A stretch of 35,393 nucleotides of DNA from a virus, in IMG/VR virus record IMGVR_UViG_3300040751_001829, positions 1 through 35,393 of that record. One strand, written 5' to 3'. Numbering within the stretch: the first letter of the stretch is position 1; every line of letters begins with the position of its first letter. The notes beneath the pieces were generated by a model. That model did no database searches. It was given only the letters and a program-made list of their open reading frames with translations, and was not told where the DNA came from. Below, piece after piece: positions 1 to 14,550 of this stretch. The position numbers and the translations under genes are program-made.

Positions 1-268
1 CTCTACCACTGTAAAAACCGTATGGTTTACGTTTAGCCATTTCAAATGTAGCCACGGTAATAGCAACAGCTCCTAGCAACAATGAATGTGCTATCATACT
101 ATAAAGACCTGCCCACATACTTCCTACAATAATACCGAATACGATACACCACATCCAAGCCAGAACTTGCATAATCATATGGCGCGTATTTAAATCTGGA
201 ATATTACTTAATGGATTAAGATTATGATCCATCACCACATTCCAACTACTGTAAATAAACCTAATCAT
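1..268 (-). CDS. Partial membrane protein, C-terminus beyond window
   Basis: The reading frame starts at ATG 268, preceded by an AGGAAAG ribosome site, and stays open to the window edge, so about 89 residues are visible. The N-terminal 30 or so residues are soluble. They are followed by two hydrophobic stretches (around VLAWMWCIVFGIIVGSMWAG and MIAHSLLLGAVAITVA) and then a basic tail (MAKRKPYG). This looks like a small two-helix membrane protein. It overlaps the stop of the 27-residue ORF upstream, which suggests translational coupling. I do not recognise a family, and no function can be given. Confidence 0.6.
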   Translation of the reverse strand, partial: MIRFIYSSWNVVMDHNLNPLSNIPDLNTRHMIMQVLAWMWCIVFGIIVGSMWAGLYSMIAHSLLLGAVAITVATFEMAKRKPYGFYSGR

Positions 269-344
269 CGTCTTTCCTATCAAAAATGAGAAACAGGGCC
301 GTCAAAGTAAGAGATAGCCCTGCTAGTATTATCCAATCAGGCAT
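261..344 (-). CDS. 27-residue single-pass membrane peptide
   Basis: A short ORF begins MPDWIILAGL and continues as one hydrophobic helix of about 18 residues, ending in the charged tail FDRKDDD. Its start lies 3 bases after the stop of the BMP-family gene, and its end overlaps the next gene's start, so it fits an operon of closely packed genes. No clear Shine-Dalgarno sequence is visible, so reinitiation after the BMP gene is the likely way it would be translated. The layout resembles small phage membrane peptides, but no family is recognised. Confidence 0.45.
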   Translation of the reverse strand: MPDWIILAGLSLTLTALFLIFDRKDDD

Positions 345-347
345 ATA

Positions 348-1406
348 TTAATTTGGTACAGCTGCATCAATACCTTCGACATAAAACATCATAGTATCAA
401 GCTGCGCTCGTGTTGCAACTTCACCTTCAGCTAAGAATGGTGTACCATCTTGCTTATTAATCGGACCAGTAAAACCATGAAGTTCTCCACTAGAAATAGC
501 ATCCTTAATACGTTGAGCTTCTTCAGCTACCATAGGTGGCATATTTGCAAACGGTGCCATTTGAACAGCACCTTCGTCCATAGTACCAAAATAATCTCCT
601 GATGTCCATGTGCCATCAAGTACTTGACCTACTTTAGCAATGTAATATGGGCCCCAGTTATCAATAGATGCGGTCAACTGTGCTTTCGGAGCGAACTTCA
701 TTTGATCTGAAGCTTGACCAAAACCAACTACACCCGCTTCTTCAGCTGCTTGCAATGGCGCTGGACTATCTGTATGCTGTGCTACAACATCGCAGCCTTG
801 TTGAATCATCGCTACTGCTGCATCTTTTTCTTTGCCGGGATCATACCATGTGTATACCCATGTAATAGCAATCTCTACATCAGGATTATACTTCTTTGCG
901 CCTAGATAATATGTATTAATTTCACGCATAACTTCTGGAATCGGGAACGAGGCGACATAACAAATCTTATTGGTTTTTGTCATCATACCTGCAATAACAC
1001 CTTGTACGTGCCGAGCTTGATATAATCTCAAACCATAGTTAGCTACGTTTTCCGCCATTTTATAACCAGTTGCGTGTTCAAACTTTACGTTTGGAAATTT
1101 CTCAGCCACATTCATTACTGGATCCATATATCCAAATGAGGTAGCAAAGATAATATCGGCGCCTTGAAGAGCCATTTGAGTGAGTACTCGCTCTGCATCT
1201 GCACCTTCTGGTACTGACTCAACAAACGTGGTTTCGACACGATCACCAAAAGCGTCTTCTACTTGCTGACGACCAATATCATGACGATATGTCCATCCAT
1301 GGTCTCCTGTTGGTCCTACATAGATGAACCCAACTTTTGCTTTATCTGCTGCAATTCCAGCAGTAGCCATCATGGCTGCAGTAATAAAAACTAAAAATTT
1401 TTTCAT
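348..1406 (-). CDS. BMP-family ABC transporter substrate-binding protein
   Basis: The 352-residue product starts with a clear signal peptide: a Lys-Lys N-terminus, a hydrophobic core and a likely cut after AGIAA near residue 20. The mature part reads as a basic membrane protein / PnrA-Med type periplasmic binding protein (COG1744), with KVGFIYVGPTGDHGW near the N-terminus and the GADIIFATSFGY segment further on. Family members bind nucleosides or related solutes in the periplasm and pass them to an ABC permease. No permease or ATPase gene is nearby, so it would have to use host transporter parts or act alone. A GGGAAA-type ribosome site precedes ATG 1406. The gene follows two small ORFs in the accessory cluster beyond regA. 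Solute identity is not readable from sequence. Family assignment is strong; its role in infection is inference. Confidence 0.88.
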   Translation of the reverse strand: MKKFLVFITAAMMATAGIAADKAKVGFIYVGPTGDHGWTYRHDIGRQQVEDAFGDRVETTFVESVPEGADAERVLTQMALQGADIIFATSFGYMDPVMNVAEKFPNVKFEHATGYKMAENVANYGLRLYQARHVQGVIAGMMTKTNKICYVASFPIPEVMREINTYYLGAKKYNPDVEIAITWVYTWYDPGKEKDAAVAMIQQGCDVVAQHTDSPAPLQAAEEAGVVGFGQASDQMKFAPKAQLTASIDNWGPYYIAKVGQVLDGTWTSGDYFGTMDEGAVQMAPFANMPPMVAEEAQRIKDAISSGELHGFTGPINKQDGTPFLAEGEVATRAQLDTMMFYVEGIDAAVPN

Positions 1407-1414
1407 ATTTTTCC

Positions 1415-1636
1415 CTATTTTTTGTCTGATACAAAAGAATACATTTCTTTTGCTTTTTTCATTAAATCGTCCATAGAATACATTTGATATGCTTCTTGCA
1501 CTTCTTCGTAGTTTTTCTTGCCTTGTTCGTACATATCATTCATCAGCTGTACGTTCATATTATACTGCTGATCCATATAATCTTTTGCTAGTTTGAGCAT
1601 GTCTGCTCTTATTTCAAATGGGTTCTTATTAGTCAT
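1415..1636 (-). CDS. Small helical protein, weakly phasin-like
   Basis: This 73-residue protein is predicted all-helical and charged, beginning MTNKNPFEIRADMLKLAKDY and rich in Met, Tyr, Lys and Glu. The NPFE start and amphipathic helical make-up recall phasins and also small hypothetical proteins of marine T4-like phages, but there is no diagnostic motif. Its ATG overlaps the end of the preceding 66-residue gene by 8 bases, so the two are probably coupled and may be related partners. It lies directly upstream of the BMP-family gene. The function is not known. Confidence 0.65.
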   Translation of the reverse strand: MTNKNPFEIRADMLKLAKDYMDQQYNMNVQLMNDMYEQGKKNYEEVQEAYQMYSMDDLMKKAKEMYSFVSDKK

Positions 1637-1829
1637 TGACGTAACCCTTCATATCTGTTGCAAGCTTATGAACAGCTTCGTCCATAGCTTTAAGTTGATC
1701 TTTATAGAAATTGAAAGTATAAGCATTTGCTGCTTTACTAAAAGTATCCCAACCGGCTACTTTTAAATCGACCATTTCTTCATAGAAAGTTTTATTATGG
1801 TCCATAAATTGTTTGTATGTAAAAATCAT
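1629..1829 (-). CDS. Small helical protein, partner of the next gene
   Basis: The 66-residue product begins MIFTYKQFMDHNKTFYEEM and is probably one or two amphipathic helices. The stretch NKTFYEEM...AGWDTFSKAANA is loosely phasin-like, but this is a weak resemblance. An AGGAGAT ribosome site sits just before ATG 1829. The gene has its own late promoter (TATAAATA at 1890-1897) and a hairpin at the predicted transcript start, so it probably heads a late transcript that runs through the 73-residue gene and the BMP gene. Confidence 0.65.
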   Translation of the reverse strand: MIFTYKQFMDHNKTFYEEMVDLKVAGWDTFSKAANAYTFNFYKDQLKAMDEAVHKLATDMKGYVND

Positions 1830-1862: not shown

Positions 1863-1884
1863 AGAGGGCGATCTCCCGCCCTCT
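1863..1884 (-). other. Perfect 8-bp hairpin at predicted 5' end of late mRNA
   Basis: On the minus strand AGAGGGCG and CGCCCTCT form a perfect GC-rich stem with a 6-base loop. Counting the TATAAATA box at 1890-1897 as -13 to -6, transcription would begin at 1884, exactly the first base of the stem. There is no T-run after it, so it is not an intrinsic terminator. A 5'-terminal hairpin of this kind would be expected to stabilise the mRNA. Confidence 0.6.
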
Positions 1885-1889
1885 GTGCT

Positions 1890-1897
1890 TATTTATA
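1890..1897 (-). promoter_or_regulatory. T4-type late promoter box TATAAATA
   Basis: An exact TATAAATA on the minus strand, 60 bases upstream of the 66-residue gene at 1829. T4 late promoters use this box with gp55, activated by the DNA-loaded gp45 clamp; both proteins are encoded here. Confidence 0.75.
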
Positions 1898-6337: not shown

Positions 6338-7531
6338 TTAATTTATCAATTCTTCTAATATTTCTAAGCATAACTTACTATCATCAGATGTGGTACCATC
6401 TTTAATTGCAGATTTTACACACTTACGAGTAAAATCAAGAGCATATCTGTTTCCTGATGCATCCATTCCCGTATTAATTAAATACACATTACAATTATTT
6501 GCATGGATTTTCTGCATTAAAAGATTACTGTATTCGCTTACTTGTCTAGGCATAAATGGAGAACCATAGCAGGGGCTAAATACTTTCTTAATTTCATTAT
6601 TACCTGCTTCAGTACCGGGCATCTGACTTGTGTAACCAGTTTCAAAGAATCTCTTAATAGTACCGTTTGTAATCTTACTTACTGCTGGAAATTTTCCAGT
6701 TACATCCATAGTTAAGAAAAATATATTATCTGGATGAGTAAAATCTTTATTCCCGTGATATGCATTCTCAACAGAAGTAATTGGATAACTTAATCTGGCA
6801 TTTGAAACACCTGGATTTTCTACTACTAAACAATCTTTTTTTCTAGCATCTTCTACAGCATAAAAAATTGTAGGATGTGTTTCTGGGCTAAGACCCTCAC
6901 TCTTAGCGTAGCAACCAGTTTCTACCATACGAATGCCATCTTGAGCCCAATAAACTTCATCATCACTAATTAATTTATAATCGGGATCGCTACTTAATGT
7001 AGTTTTACCTGTACCGCTTAATCCAAACATTAAATTAGTTGTATCGTTATAGGTAAAAGCACTACAGTGCATAGGTAAAGTACCATTTTCTGGTAACTCA
7101 AAACTTATAATACCGAACACACCTTTTTTAATTTCACCAAGAAACGTAGTTCCACCAATTAACATAACACATTCGTCCAAATGAACATAAATATATGGCT
7201 CATCTACTACCATTTCAGTATTATGTATAATCGTCCAATCAGCAGTATATTGTAGAGGATTGTCTACTACTGGAAACATATTACGGACAAATTGTGCATG
7301 TCTATCATCATTAGTCTCTACACGAAAACACACTCCAGCGGCATAAAATACAAGGTTATGTGAATAATCCATAAGATCCATACGCATATGCATTACGTGA
7401 TAATCTTCTTCGTTACCAATTTTATTATACTTAGGACGACTAAGATCAAGATATTTTGTTTTTTCACCAAAGAAATATTTATTTTCTGGGCTTCTACCTG
7501 TAGGTTTGGTTGTTATTTCAATATTAGGCAT
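6338..7531 (-). CDS. pckA: ATP-dependent phosphoenolpyruvate carboxykinase, compact form
   Basis: The 397-residue product is a member of the ATP-type PEP carboxykinase family (oxaloacetate + ATP to PEP + ADP + CO2). Visible motifs: GRSPENKY at 12-19 (substrate-binding Arg13), GGTTFLGEIKKGVF at 126-139 (metal-ligand Lys135), MHCSA at 154-158 (metal-ligand His155), the kinase P-loop GLSGTGKTTLS at 170-180 (Lys176), SDDE at 189-192 (Asp190/191) and NARLSYP with Arg246. The lid segment GTEAG...FSPCYGSPF is also present. Cellular enzymes are about 525-540 residues; this one lacks about 50 N-terminal and about 70 C-terminal residues. One Tyr of the usual active-site motif is Phe130, and the usual His after DDE is Val. 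Its ATG overlaps the gene 46 stop (TAATG), inside the replication operon. The family is certain; activity in infected cells is inference. Confidence 0.95.
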   Translation of the reverse strand: MPNIEITTKPTGRSPENKYFFGEKTKYLDLSRPKYNKIGNEEDYHVMHMRMDLMDYSHNLVFYAAGVCFRVETNDDRHAQFVRNMFPVVDNPLQYTADWTIIHNTEMVVDEPYIYVHLDECVMLIGGTTFLGEIKKGVFGIISFELPENGTLPMHCSAFTYNDTTNLMFGLSGTGKTTLSSDPDYKLISDDEVYWAQDGIRMVETGCYAKSEGLSPETHPTIFYAVEDARKKDCLVVENPGVSNARLSYPITSVENAYHGNKDFTHPDNIFFLTMDVTGKFPAVSKITNGTIKRFFETGYTSQMPGTEAGNNEIKKVFSPCYGSPFMPRQVSEYSNLLMQKIHANNCNVYLINTGMDASGNRYALDFTRKCVKSAIKDGTTSDDSKLCLEILEELIN

Positions 7532-9362: not shown

Positions 9363-10423
9363 TAAACTATTTCCATTGATTGTGCTTCTGTAAGAAGTTT
9401 CCTCATATTTACTTTTATCTTATCTTTGTCAAGATCCGTATCAACAGCATCAACATAACTATCTAACAAAACTTCGGTATCTTCCATAGATATACTTTCG
9501 TCTTCAACATTCTCTCCAATAAACTCATTAAAGTTTTCTGCAATCTTTAGTTCATGAATCTTTCTATTCTGTATTCTATCAACTAAACGATCAAATGTAA
9601 AGAGGTCAGACTTATTAATTACAACTATTTTTACAAATTTATTATCTAAATGGTCCACATTAAAATCTGAATAACTTTGTCTTGAATCATCATATACAAT
9701 CTTTTCGTATAGAGTGTATGGATTTCTAATGGCTTCCATTTCACGAGTTTCGGTATCTATCACATGAAAGTGTTTGTTATCGTGAGCATCAGACCAGAAA
9801 AATTCCATCTGAGTGCCTAGATATGTTATATTATCTTTTATTGATTTAGTATGAAAATGGCCAGATAAAACTTTCTCAAAGCGGGAGAAAAGTTTATGAT
9901 CCATACCATGTTTATTTTCTATGCCTCGCATCATCTCAAACCCACTAAGTTCAAGATGACCGCCTAACCAATCTGCTTTACAGTTCTTAACAAACTCCAT
10001 AGATTTATCGTGATTTTCTTGAGTGATCCAAGGTAACATTGCAATCTTAAGAGAATCATATTCGAGAACACGAGGTTCCATAATAATATTAATTTCATTC
10101 ATAAAGTGACCTAATAGTTCTTTTAAACTATTTAAGTCGTTTGTATTCTTATAGTAAGTATCGTGGTTACCAGGCACAATATCCATAGACATTCCGTAAT
10201 CACGAAGATGTGATAAAAAATGTTTACGATTATGATTTAAAGCTCGGAAATTAATAAACTTACGATTATCATAATAATCACCAAGATGAATAATTTGCTT
10301 AATATCATGTTCTTTACAATACGGGAAAAAGATGTTTTCATAAAAATCTGCTGCATTATTTAAAAATACATCAGAGCTATTTCTAATACCACAGTGGGTA
10401 TCATTTAATACTGCTATTTTCAT
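9362..10423 (-). CDS. 47: Recombination endonuclease subunit gp47 (Mre11/SbcD-like)
   Basis: The 353-residue metallophosphoesterase shows the five expected motifs: NDTHCG near residue 8, HLGDYYDN near 47, VPGNHDTY near 83, WLGGHLE near 153 and SGHFHTKS near 188. Length is close to T4 gp47 (339). It is the nuclease partner of gp46 in processing DNA ends. An extended acidic C-terminal part (ENVEDESISMEDTEV) follows the catalytic domain. The gene starts 6 bases after gene 55. Confidence 0.96.
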   Translation of the reverse strand: MKIAVLNDTHCGIRNSSDVFLNNAADFYENIFFPYCKEHDIKQIIHLGDYYDNRKFINFRALNHNRKHFLSHLRDYGMSMDIVPGNHDTYYKNTNDLNSLKELLGHFMNEINIIMEPRVLEYDSLKIAMLPWITQENHDKSMEFVKNCKADWLGGHLELSGFEMMRGIENKHGMDHKLFSRFEKVLSGHFHTKSIKDNITYLGTQMEFFWSDAHDNKHFHVIDTETREMEAIRNPYTLYEKIVYDDSRQSYSDFNVDHLDNKFVKIVVINKSDLFTFDRLVDRIQNRKIHELKIAENFNEFIGENVEDESISMEDTEVLLDSYVDAVDTDLDKDKIKVNMRKLLTEAQSMEIV

Positions 10424-10429
10424 TATATA

Positions 10430-11026
10430 TCATTCCAAAAAGTCGGATAAATCTGAATCTACGTTAACTGCTCTTTTTTTTCTATTTTTTACTACTTTTG
10501 AAAAAGTTTTAATTTCTGTATCATATGCTTTTACTTTATCAATTCTATCTTTAAGTGTATCAATAAAATGATTAGCAACTTGAGATGATGCATCATCAGT
10601 GCCAAGTTCTGTAACAAGAAATGCATCTATTCCAGATTGAGCAAGATATTTTTCTTTAATTTCTTGCTGTTTCTTTTCTTTAGTAATCCTACGAAGAAAA
10701 GCATACCAAATGATCTGAGTAAAATAAGCAAACGCATTGGGTTTTCCTGTTCTAGTTGTAGCATTAATATTATAATTTTCTATAGCTTTTAAACAATTCT
10801 CTACAGCATCCATAACCATTTCTTCACGATATGTATATCGGATAAAGTTGGATTTATGAGATAGATTCTCTGCTATCTGAAGAAAACTCCTAGCGATATA
10901 GTCTGGTACTATTGGAAGTTTTTCTTCATTTTCTTTTGCTAAAGTTACTTTTTTCACATACTCTACAATAGCCAATGAAAATTCTGAATTATTAATATAG
11001 TGGATGTTTTTTGTCTTTTTTGCCAT
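10430..11026 (-). CDS. 55: Late-transcription sigma factor gp55
   Basis: The 198-residue product matches T4 gp55 in the start (IHYINNSEFSLAIVEYVK, compare YNYVNNKELLQAI), in the core (IAENLSHKSNFIRYTYREEM, compare IAEGLSKRFNF) and in the segment NAFAYFTQIIWYAFLRRITK. It also ends with an acidic-hydrophobic tail (DLSDFLE) of the kind that binds the sliding clamp in T4. It directs host RNA polymerase to TATAAATA boxes, seven of which are seen in this window. It has a strong sigma70-type promoter at 11050-11078 and heads the operon 55-47-46-pckA. Confidence 0.94.
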   Translation of the reverse strand: MAKKTKNIHYINNSEFSLAIVEYVKKVTLAKENEEKLPIVPDYIARSFLQIAENLSHKSNFIRYTYREEMVMDAVENCLKAIENYNINATTRTGKPNAFAYFTQIIWYAFLRRITKEKKQQEIKEKYLAQSGIDAFLVTELGTDDASSQVANHFIDTLKDRIDKVKAYDTEIKTFSKVVKNRKKRAVNVDSDLSDFLE

Positions 11027-14199: not shown

Positions 14200-14550
14200 A
14201 TGACTAAGTTTGATAAATCTAAATTTACTTTTCACGGTGGTTATCTTGAGTACACAGGTACTTACGAAGGCCAACCAACATGGGATCAAGTTGCTCCTAA
14301 CTGTCACCCATCACGTGTAGGTATGCCAAAAGAATTATTCATAGCTCGGTTTAAATATAATGGTCCGTTTACTAAGGCTAAATTTCTAAAAGAATTAATC
14401 AAAAGCTTTACTGTTGAAGAATATGTAGAAGCTCGCAAAAAAGAAGGGCCTGAAAGTGCTCCTCTTAAAATCTTAAAAAATAATAATCCTGAATGGGCTG
14501 ATAATATCATGTTTCAGTGGTTAAAGAAGATGTCTAATAAGACGGCATAA
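14200..14550 (+). CDS. Lone plus-strand gene, unknown 116-residue protein
   Basis: The only ordinary gene on the plus strand. It has its own promoter, a GGAGAAAG ribosome site and a terminator at 14579-14607, so it is a self-contained unit between gp23 and the gp19-like gene. The product is soluble and basic. It starts TKFDKSKFTFHGGYLEYTGT, has a short beta-rich front (PKELFIARFKYNGPF) and a helical back (TKAKFLKELIKSFTVEEYVE; EWADNIMFQWLKKM). No family is recognised. The promoter type suggests early expression, and the layout is that of a moron-type gene whose product could act on the host. Confidence 0.8.
   Translation: MTKFDKSKFTFHGGYLEYTGTYEGQPTWDQVAPNCHPSRVGMPKELFIARFKYNGPFTKAKFLKELIKSFTVEEYVEARKKEGPESAPLKILKNNNPEWADNIMFQWLKKMSNKTA

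Follow-up and report, generated by a model that had tools for sequence, protein, structure and literature searches.

The binding-protein gene and its phage setting

The window, by which we mean the whole stretch of DNA analyzed, is a virus record of 35,393 bases. One strand of it holds genes for terminase, portal, sheath, capsid, UvsW, gp55, gp44, gp45, RegA and others, recognized by Pfam and by homology to phage C48C1, and the record is a fragment of a T4-like phage, with a terminase that shares 71% identity with the C48C1 terminase and about 46% with those of cyanophages. Between hsp20 and the DNA polymerase gene, as variable cargo, lies an intact ORF that starts with ATG and encodes a 352-aa solute-binding protein of the BMP family (348–1406, minus strand; read on the plus strand, this span has stop codons throughout). 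The gene and the features around it are the following:

2–283, minus strand: small hydrophobic ORF adjoining the BMP gene, 94 aa from a TTG start, with an in-frame ATG at 268 (ORF list)
348–1406, minus strand: BMP-family (PF02608) solute-binding protein, most likely of the purine-base type, 352 aa (ORF list, Pfam, structure and sequence relatives, model)
768–1295, minus strand: span with the pocket codons W38, S90, F91, R132, E158, E162, W187, H211 and D213 (alignment to AtzT)
1347–1406, minus strand: predicted Sec-type signal peptide, residues 1–19 or 1–20, with an inferred cleavage site (composition and the low-confidence model region 1–17)
1415–1636, minus strand: small ORF of 73 aa, with 8 nt between its end and the BMP start (ORF list; no Pfam match)
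1629–1829, minus strand: small ORF of 66 aa that opens the BMP late unit (ORF list; no credible Pfam match)
1863–1884, minus strand: hairpin AGAGGGCGGGAGATCGCCCTCT, directly behind the late promoter (conservation in the lineage)
1890–1897, minus strand: late-promoter element TATAAATA, 68 nt upstream of the 66-aa ORF (motif scan, conservation)

An earlier note on this DNA had described a phage-borne BMP-type binding protein in an accessory position and with no transporter partner, and all three points were borne out. The protein matches PF02608 over its full length and above the gathering score (2.1e−51, residues 23–297, 175.1 bits against a cut-off of 24.1) on a contig that carries T4 core genes, and a chance ORF is excluded because ten other contigs have the gene at the same junction, with 95–99% identity and dN/dS values of 0.019–0.061; the presence of a BMP-family solute-binding protein in this T4-like phage is thus confirmed. 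Transporter subunits were found neither in the window nor in a collinear relative of 177.5 kb. The gene is variable cargo of the island, since of 29 related T4-like contigs covering gp44-RegA-DNA polymerase only two have it, and it is missing from C48C1 and from a close relative (L189, gp44 94%), in which the polymerase comes directly after hsp20, DUF1127 and two small ORFs of the set. With carriage this limited, its benefit is not a general one.

The protein matched no PHROG family and no NCBIfam model above the model's own cut-off; a vitamin B6 binder was rejected, as ABC_BMP_B6 scores 70 bits against a cut-off of 400. Its leader, MKKFLVFITAAMMATAGIAA, has KK in the n-region, a hydrophobic core with a mean Kyte-Doolittle value of 2.48, small residues where cleavage is expected and no lipobox cysteine. 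In composition, on which this description is based, it resembles a Sec type I leader without lipobox, and the protein is accordingly predicted to be cleaved and exported.

The 73-aa ORF and the BMP gene are probably co-transcribed. A phasin-like identity of the two upstream small ORFs, a by-eye impression, had no Pfam support, and a small hydrophobic ORF of the 2–283 type also lies near the BMP gene in several other phage loci. TATAAATA is the core of a T4-type late promoter, and the GC-rich, 8-bp hairpin behind it lies close to where the transcript is expected to begin; both are kept in the window lineage, the hairpin being identical in the contigs of seven relatives and present in a variant form in L189. 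An excess of late-promoter elements over chance was rejected (eight in the window vs. 7.1 expected) and only their strand and position are unusual: seven of the eight are on the coding strand, where each precedes an ORF start by 30–76 nt, and such zones make up 10% of positions. Late expression of the BMP gene is likely because the element stands upstream of this gene set in the fitting strand and position, and because element and hairpin are conserved. Just upstream of the BMP gene in other phages, a late promoter was found in 0 of 50 loci. No Rfam RNA was matched in the window.

Two further genes of the window were recorded. A phage-borne ATP-type phosphoenolpyruvate carboxykinase (6338–7531, minus strand, 397 aa) lies between gp46 and gp45; it is shorter than the bacterial enzyme and also present in L006, L009 and L189. 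A plus-strand ORF of 116 aa (14200–14550) stands among minus-strand genes, between gp23 and a gp19-like gene, and is conserved, being nearly identical in L183 (4597–4947).

Fold, pocket and ligand class

The AlphaFold model of the protein, built from an alignment of the window and locus proteins, has a mean pLDDT of 93.9, with residues 1–17 low and nearly all others > 90. It shows the two-lobe fold of the family, its top structural matches are all family members, and a fusion or extra domain was not found in it. Among solved proteins, 3S99 ranks first by sequence with 416 bits and AtzT second with 340 bits, followed by a protein at only 65 bits. The same two lead by structure, with 3S99 as the top Foldseek match (TM 0.92/0.98, rmsd 1.0) followed by AtzT, and with VIA-align Z values of 51.8 for 3S99, 50.5 for AtzT, 38.5 for Lbp and about 34–35 for PnrA and BmpD. 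As 3S99 and AtzT are much closer in both sequence and fold, the PnrA-like type suggested in the earlier note was not upheld. Riboflavin (RfuA) or sugar binding was likewise rejected, the folds of RfuA and of sugar binders being more distant from the model.

AtzT kept guanine through purification, with binding values of 110 nM for guanine and 2.5 μM for adenine, and the adenine of 3S99 was modelled rather than measured (PMC6834077). The AtzT contacts are Tyr45, Ser97, Phe98, Glu165, Trp194, Asn218 and Asn220 (PMC6834077), and the alignment of the pockets (window/AtzT) pairs W38/Y45, S90/S97, F91/F98, R132/T139, E158/E165, E162/N169, W187/W194, H211/N218 and D213/N220. The contacts in common are thus S, F, E and W, and AtzT departs from the window protein at three contact positions. 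The combination W38, S90, F91, E158, W187, H211 and D213 is that of 3S99, with which the window pocket is identical at eight of nine positions, the exception being E162 (G in 3S99). Loss of pocket residues in related phages, which would have spoken against a binding role, was looked for: all nine positions are invariant across the window protein and 50 dereplicated phage copies, an outcome that would arise by chance less than once in a thousand given that 44% of mature columns are invariant across the phage proteins. At the level of pocket residues the protein thus falls with the purine-nucleobase binders 3S99 and AtzT, and sequence, fold, pocket and the host operons described below together make purine nucleobases, not nucleosides, its most likely ligands.

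Related phages and bacterial homologues

In IMG/VR, 188 stretches encode relatives of the protein, and the best 80 of the 188 were retrieved for comparison. Several of the retrieved contigs have T4 core genes beside the BMP gene, and a Terminase_6N gene occurs in seven of 41 larger phage records, most of the records being fragments. A search of 50,697 named phage records gave no close copy (best match 38%, in unannotated faecal contigs), so the trait sits in uncultured phages, whose hosts are probably abundant marine alphaproteobacteria. Within the window lineage, dN/dS is 0.019, 0.033 and 0.061 at dS 0.43–0.62, and the protein has therefore been kept by selection across phages. Its gene has a GC content of 0.42, against 0.34 for the window. 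With T4 core genes on the same contig, host homologues and these dN/dS values, it is a host-like gene under selection in a phage genome and a putative auxiliary metabolic gene.

In trees from quick searches with SH-aLRT support only, the phage copies are interspersed with proteins of Planktomarina, other Rhodobacteraceae and SAR116, and a single origin was rejected (monophyly of the phage rows, p-AU 1.7e−10). Planktomarina, other Rhodobacteraceae and SAR116 all fit as hosts. In the close relative L009, genes for a cytochrome oxidase subunit IV-like protein, a plastocyanin/azurin-type copper protein and a DoxX-like protein lie downstream of the BMP gene (9607–10651); host assignment from this copper protein was tried and abandoned, as its 43–55% identity to several alphaproteobacteria favoured no single host.

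The nearest bacterial homologue, 81% identical, is already part of a purine importer. Bacteria with the complete operon typically have the order xdhB-xdhC-ATPase-permease-permease-BMP; in the Planktomarina locus the BMP gene is on the opposite strand, facing the xdhB-xdhC-ATPase-permease-permease genes, and the annotated records of Ruegeria sp. AD91A and Paroceanicella profunda have xdhABC accompanied by these ABC genes and BMP, the latter locus additionally encoding guanine deaminase, 8-oxoguanine deaminase and urate hydroxylase. All 11 bacterial genomes tested, SAR116 ones among them, have a homologue of the host permease, so that a phage BMP protein would meet a suitable importer in such hosts. 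A hidden permease of this type in the phages was searched for and rejected, with BPD_transp_2 in 0 of 41 phage records and none in the 177.5-kb relative.

Beyond the window lineage the gene stands in a wider cassette. In 43 of the 50 dereplicated phage loci (L012–L080; e.g., L015 9020–9883) it is followed, usually directly, by a 2OG-Fe(II) oxygenase with DIOX_N and 2OG-FeII_Oxy domains whose best solved relative is thymine dioxygenase, and SAR116 genomes have the same BMP-oxygenase pair without adjacent permeases (e.g., L084 7068–7934). FolE lies upstream in 19 of the 50 loci and APRT downstream in 11. In L015 (6868–14463), L034, L035 and L060, genes for FolE, QueD- or QueE-like proteins, APRT, PurA (not PurZ) and other phosphoribosyltransferases surround BMP, hinting at 7-deazaguanine or purine metabolism. 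Two phage loci have a complete NMT1-type importer between BMP and oxygenase; the NMT1/SsuA-type ABC importer genes (binding protein, ATPase, permease) of L061 (9152–11580) and L046 (9114–11528) come with an arylsulfotransferase-like gene. Xanthine riboswitch control covers dioxygenase and NMT1-type genes (PMC7373994), and by analogy the cassette dioxygenase and NMT1-type genes recall those under such control.

About 48 nt before many BMP and NMT1-type binding-protein genes of related phages there is a hairpin of 27–31 nt, GGNUGAARCAU-AGUUAAAGWACANCC, examples of which are:

L065, 7917–7945: conserved 5′ hairpin
L061, 9096–9126: conserved 5′ hairpin
L025, 7922–7948: conserved 5′ hairpin

One pair of its stem occurs as G-C, A-U and C-G (covariation), and its exact form is found in 26 viral contigs. 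In 25 of these the gene that begins directly after the hairpin is a BMP or NMT1-type gene; in L163 the gene that follows sits between BMP and oxygenase. Known riboswitches were rejected as its identity (no Rfam match at gathering score or permissive limits), as was the NMT1 xanthine aptamer, GAAGCNU being common to one strand only when compared with the aptamer of the crystal paper. A second conserved leader, GGCAGAGTCGATCCTGCCTTAACACCCTCGAAAAGGA, lies just upstream of BMP in L014, L032, L034, L053 and L080, and its CCTT could pair with a ribosome-binding AAGG. In L020 (7623–7947), L032 (7601–7948), L014 (1697–2026) and L040 (7635–7943) a tmRNA of alphaproteobacterial type is directly upstream of BMP (Rfam RF01849, 82–133 bits).

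These loci may, tentatively and at somewhat less than even chances, represent a shared mobile module for purine uptake and oxidation in marine alphaproteobacterial phages, also moved between phages and bacteria, that would comprise the BMP purine-base binder, the 2OG oxygenase related to thymine dioxygenase, a further importer of NMT1 type in some of them and, before the binding-protein genes, a metabolite-sensing RNA hairpin of an undescribed kind; the window would hold the binding-protein part alone. The oxygenase and the 27–31-nt hairpin are both missing from the window lineage, so the cassette supports the ligand class by homology only. The 177.5-kb relative encodes no 2OG oxygenase, APRT, PurA or FolE, and the absence of a recognisable downstream purine enzyme makes the metabolic use less clear in this lineage than in its relatives.

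Function and comparison with known systems

We consider it probable that this is a horizontally acquired, late-made cargo gene that augments purine-base uptake via the host's BMP-type importer. This reading builds on the gene, its predicted fold, the identity of the pocket, purifying selection, the accessory position and the presence of permeases in the bacteria and not in the phages. The gene would have come from marine alphaproteobacteria of the Roseobacter/SAR116 type; its product would be made late in infection from the T4-type late promoter and exported by Sec to the periplasm, where W38 and W187 would sandwich a purine base as the protein closes, and S90, F91, E158, H211 and D213 would read its edges. 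Loaded protein would pass its ligand on to the BMP-type ABC importer that the host itself has, and more purine uptake would provide ready nucleobases, or nitrogen and carbon, for phage synthesis. The earlier proposal that a host ABC permease is redirected toward nucleosides thus survives in part: work with a host permease is probable, the nucleosides give way to nucleobases, and augmenting an existing importer fits better than redirecting a permease because the nearest homologue belongs to a purine importer. The surface role also suggested there is without support.

Alternatively, the protein might bind purines without feeding an importer, by periplasmic holding or buffering or by competition with the host binding protein. 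No permease travels with it and late expression would leave little time for import to pay off, but matching importers occur in every bacterial genome checked and relatives pair BMP with purine-processing enzymes, which require the base inside the cell; we regard this as unlikely. A PnrA-like nucleoside binder that redirects the host permease would share the Pfam family and fold class of PnrA, BmpD and Lbp, whose structures bind nucleosides; these proteins are, however, more distant (17–24% identity, Z 34–38 vs. 50–52), and the pocket, like the host operons, points to nucleobases, which makes nucleosides rather improbable. Co-option for superinfection exclusion, as a virion part or for chemoreception could explain why the gene shares a late promoter with two small ORFs and a small hydrophobic one, yet an unchanged pocket and strong purifying selection over the whole protein argue for retained binding, and with no fusion or added domain such a job seems very unlikely. 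That the gene is a functionless passenger recently taken from a host, as its variable carriage, absence from the close relative and C48C1, and higher GC might suggest, is largely refuted and hardly credible given the long retention under selection that dS of 0.43–0.62 with dN/dS of 0.02–0.06 across samples implies.

To our knowledge, phage-encoded solute-binding proteins are known mainly for phosphate, and within the reach of the search wording used, no report of a phage BMP protein was found in the literature. The window protein would be an orphan phage solute-binding protein new for the purine-base type. If such a binder is widespread, marine phages would draw on extracellular nucleobases or organic nitrogen, the raw material used most directly for phage genomes, and would be tied to dissolved purine turnover in the ocean.

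Among solved proteins, the closest is 3S99 of Brucella melitensis, a BMP-family structure from structural genomics with 55% identity over 330 residues and an rmsd of 0.9–1.0 Å, whose pocket differs at E162 only; it is the product of a bacterial gene, whereas ours comes from a phage gene without adjoining transporter genes. AtzT, the guanine/2-hydroxyatrazine binder of Pseudomonas sp. ADP (PMC6834077), is 48% identical; its aromatic sandwich and its Ser, Phe and Glu contacts are kept, while Asn218, Asn220 and Tyr45 are replaced by His211, Asp213 and Trp38, and unlike the phage gene it is encoded with its own transporter, on a plasmid. PnrA, BmpD and Lbp have family and fold class in common with the window protein and nucleosides in their solved structures. 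The Xanthine-I (NMT1 motif) riboswitch regulons and hpxDE purine oxidation genes (PMC7373994) resemble the cassettes of related phages in the co-occurrence of isopenicillin-N-synthase-like/DIOX_N dioxygenases with NMT1/THI5-type transporters, but the hairpin of the phages has no match in Rfam, and oxygenase and hairpin are both absent from the window lineage. The nearest parallel among phages is the cyanophage PstS, a phage-encoded phosphate-binding protein thought to feed the host ABC importer (PMC3429862, PMC2984593): it too is an orphan host-derived binding protein of marine T4-like phages that encode no permease or ATPase for it, but it belongs to another protein family than PF02608 with its purine-type pocket, its solute is phosphate, and its homologues are cyanobacterial, whereas those of the window protein are alphaproteobacterial.
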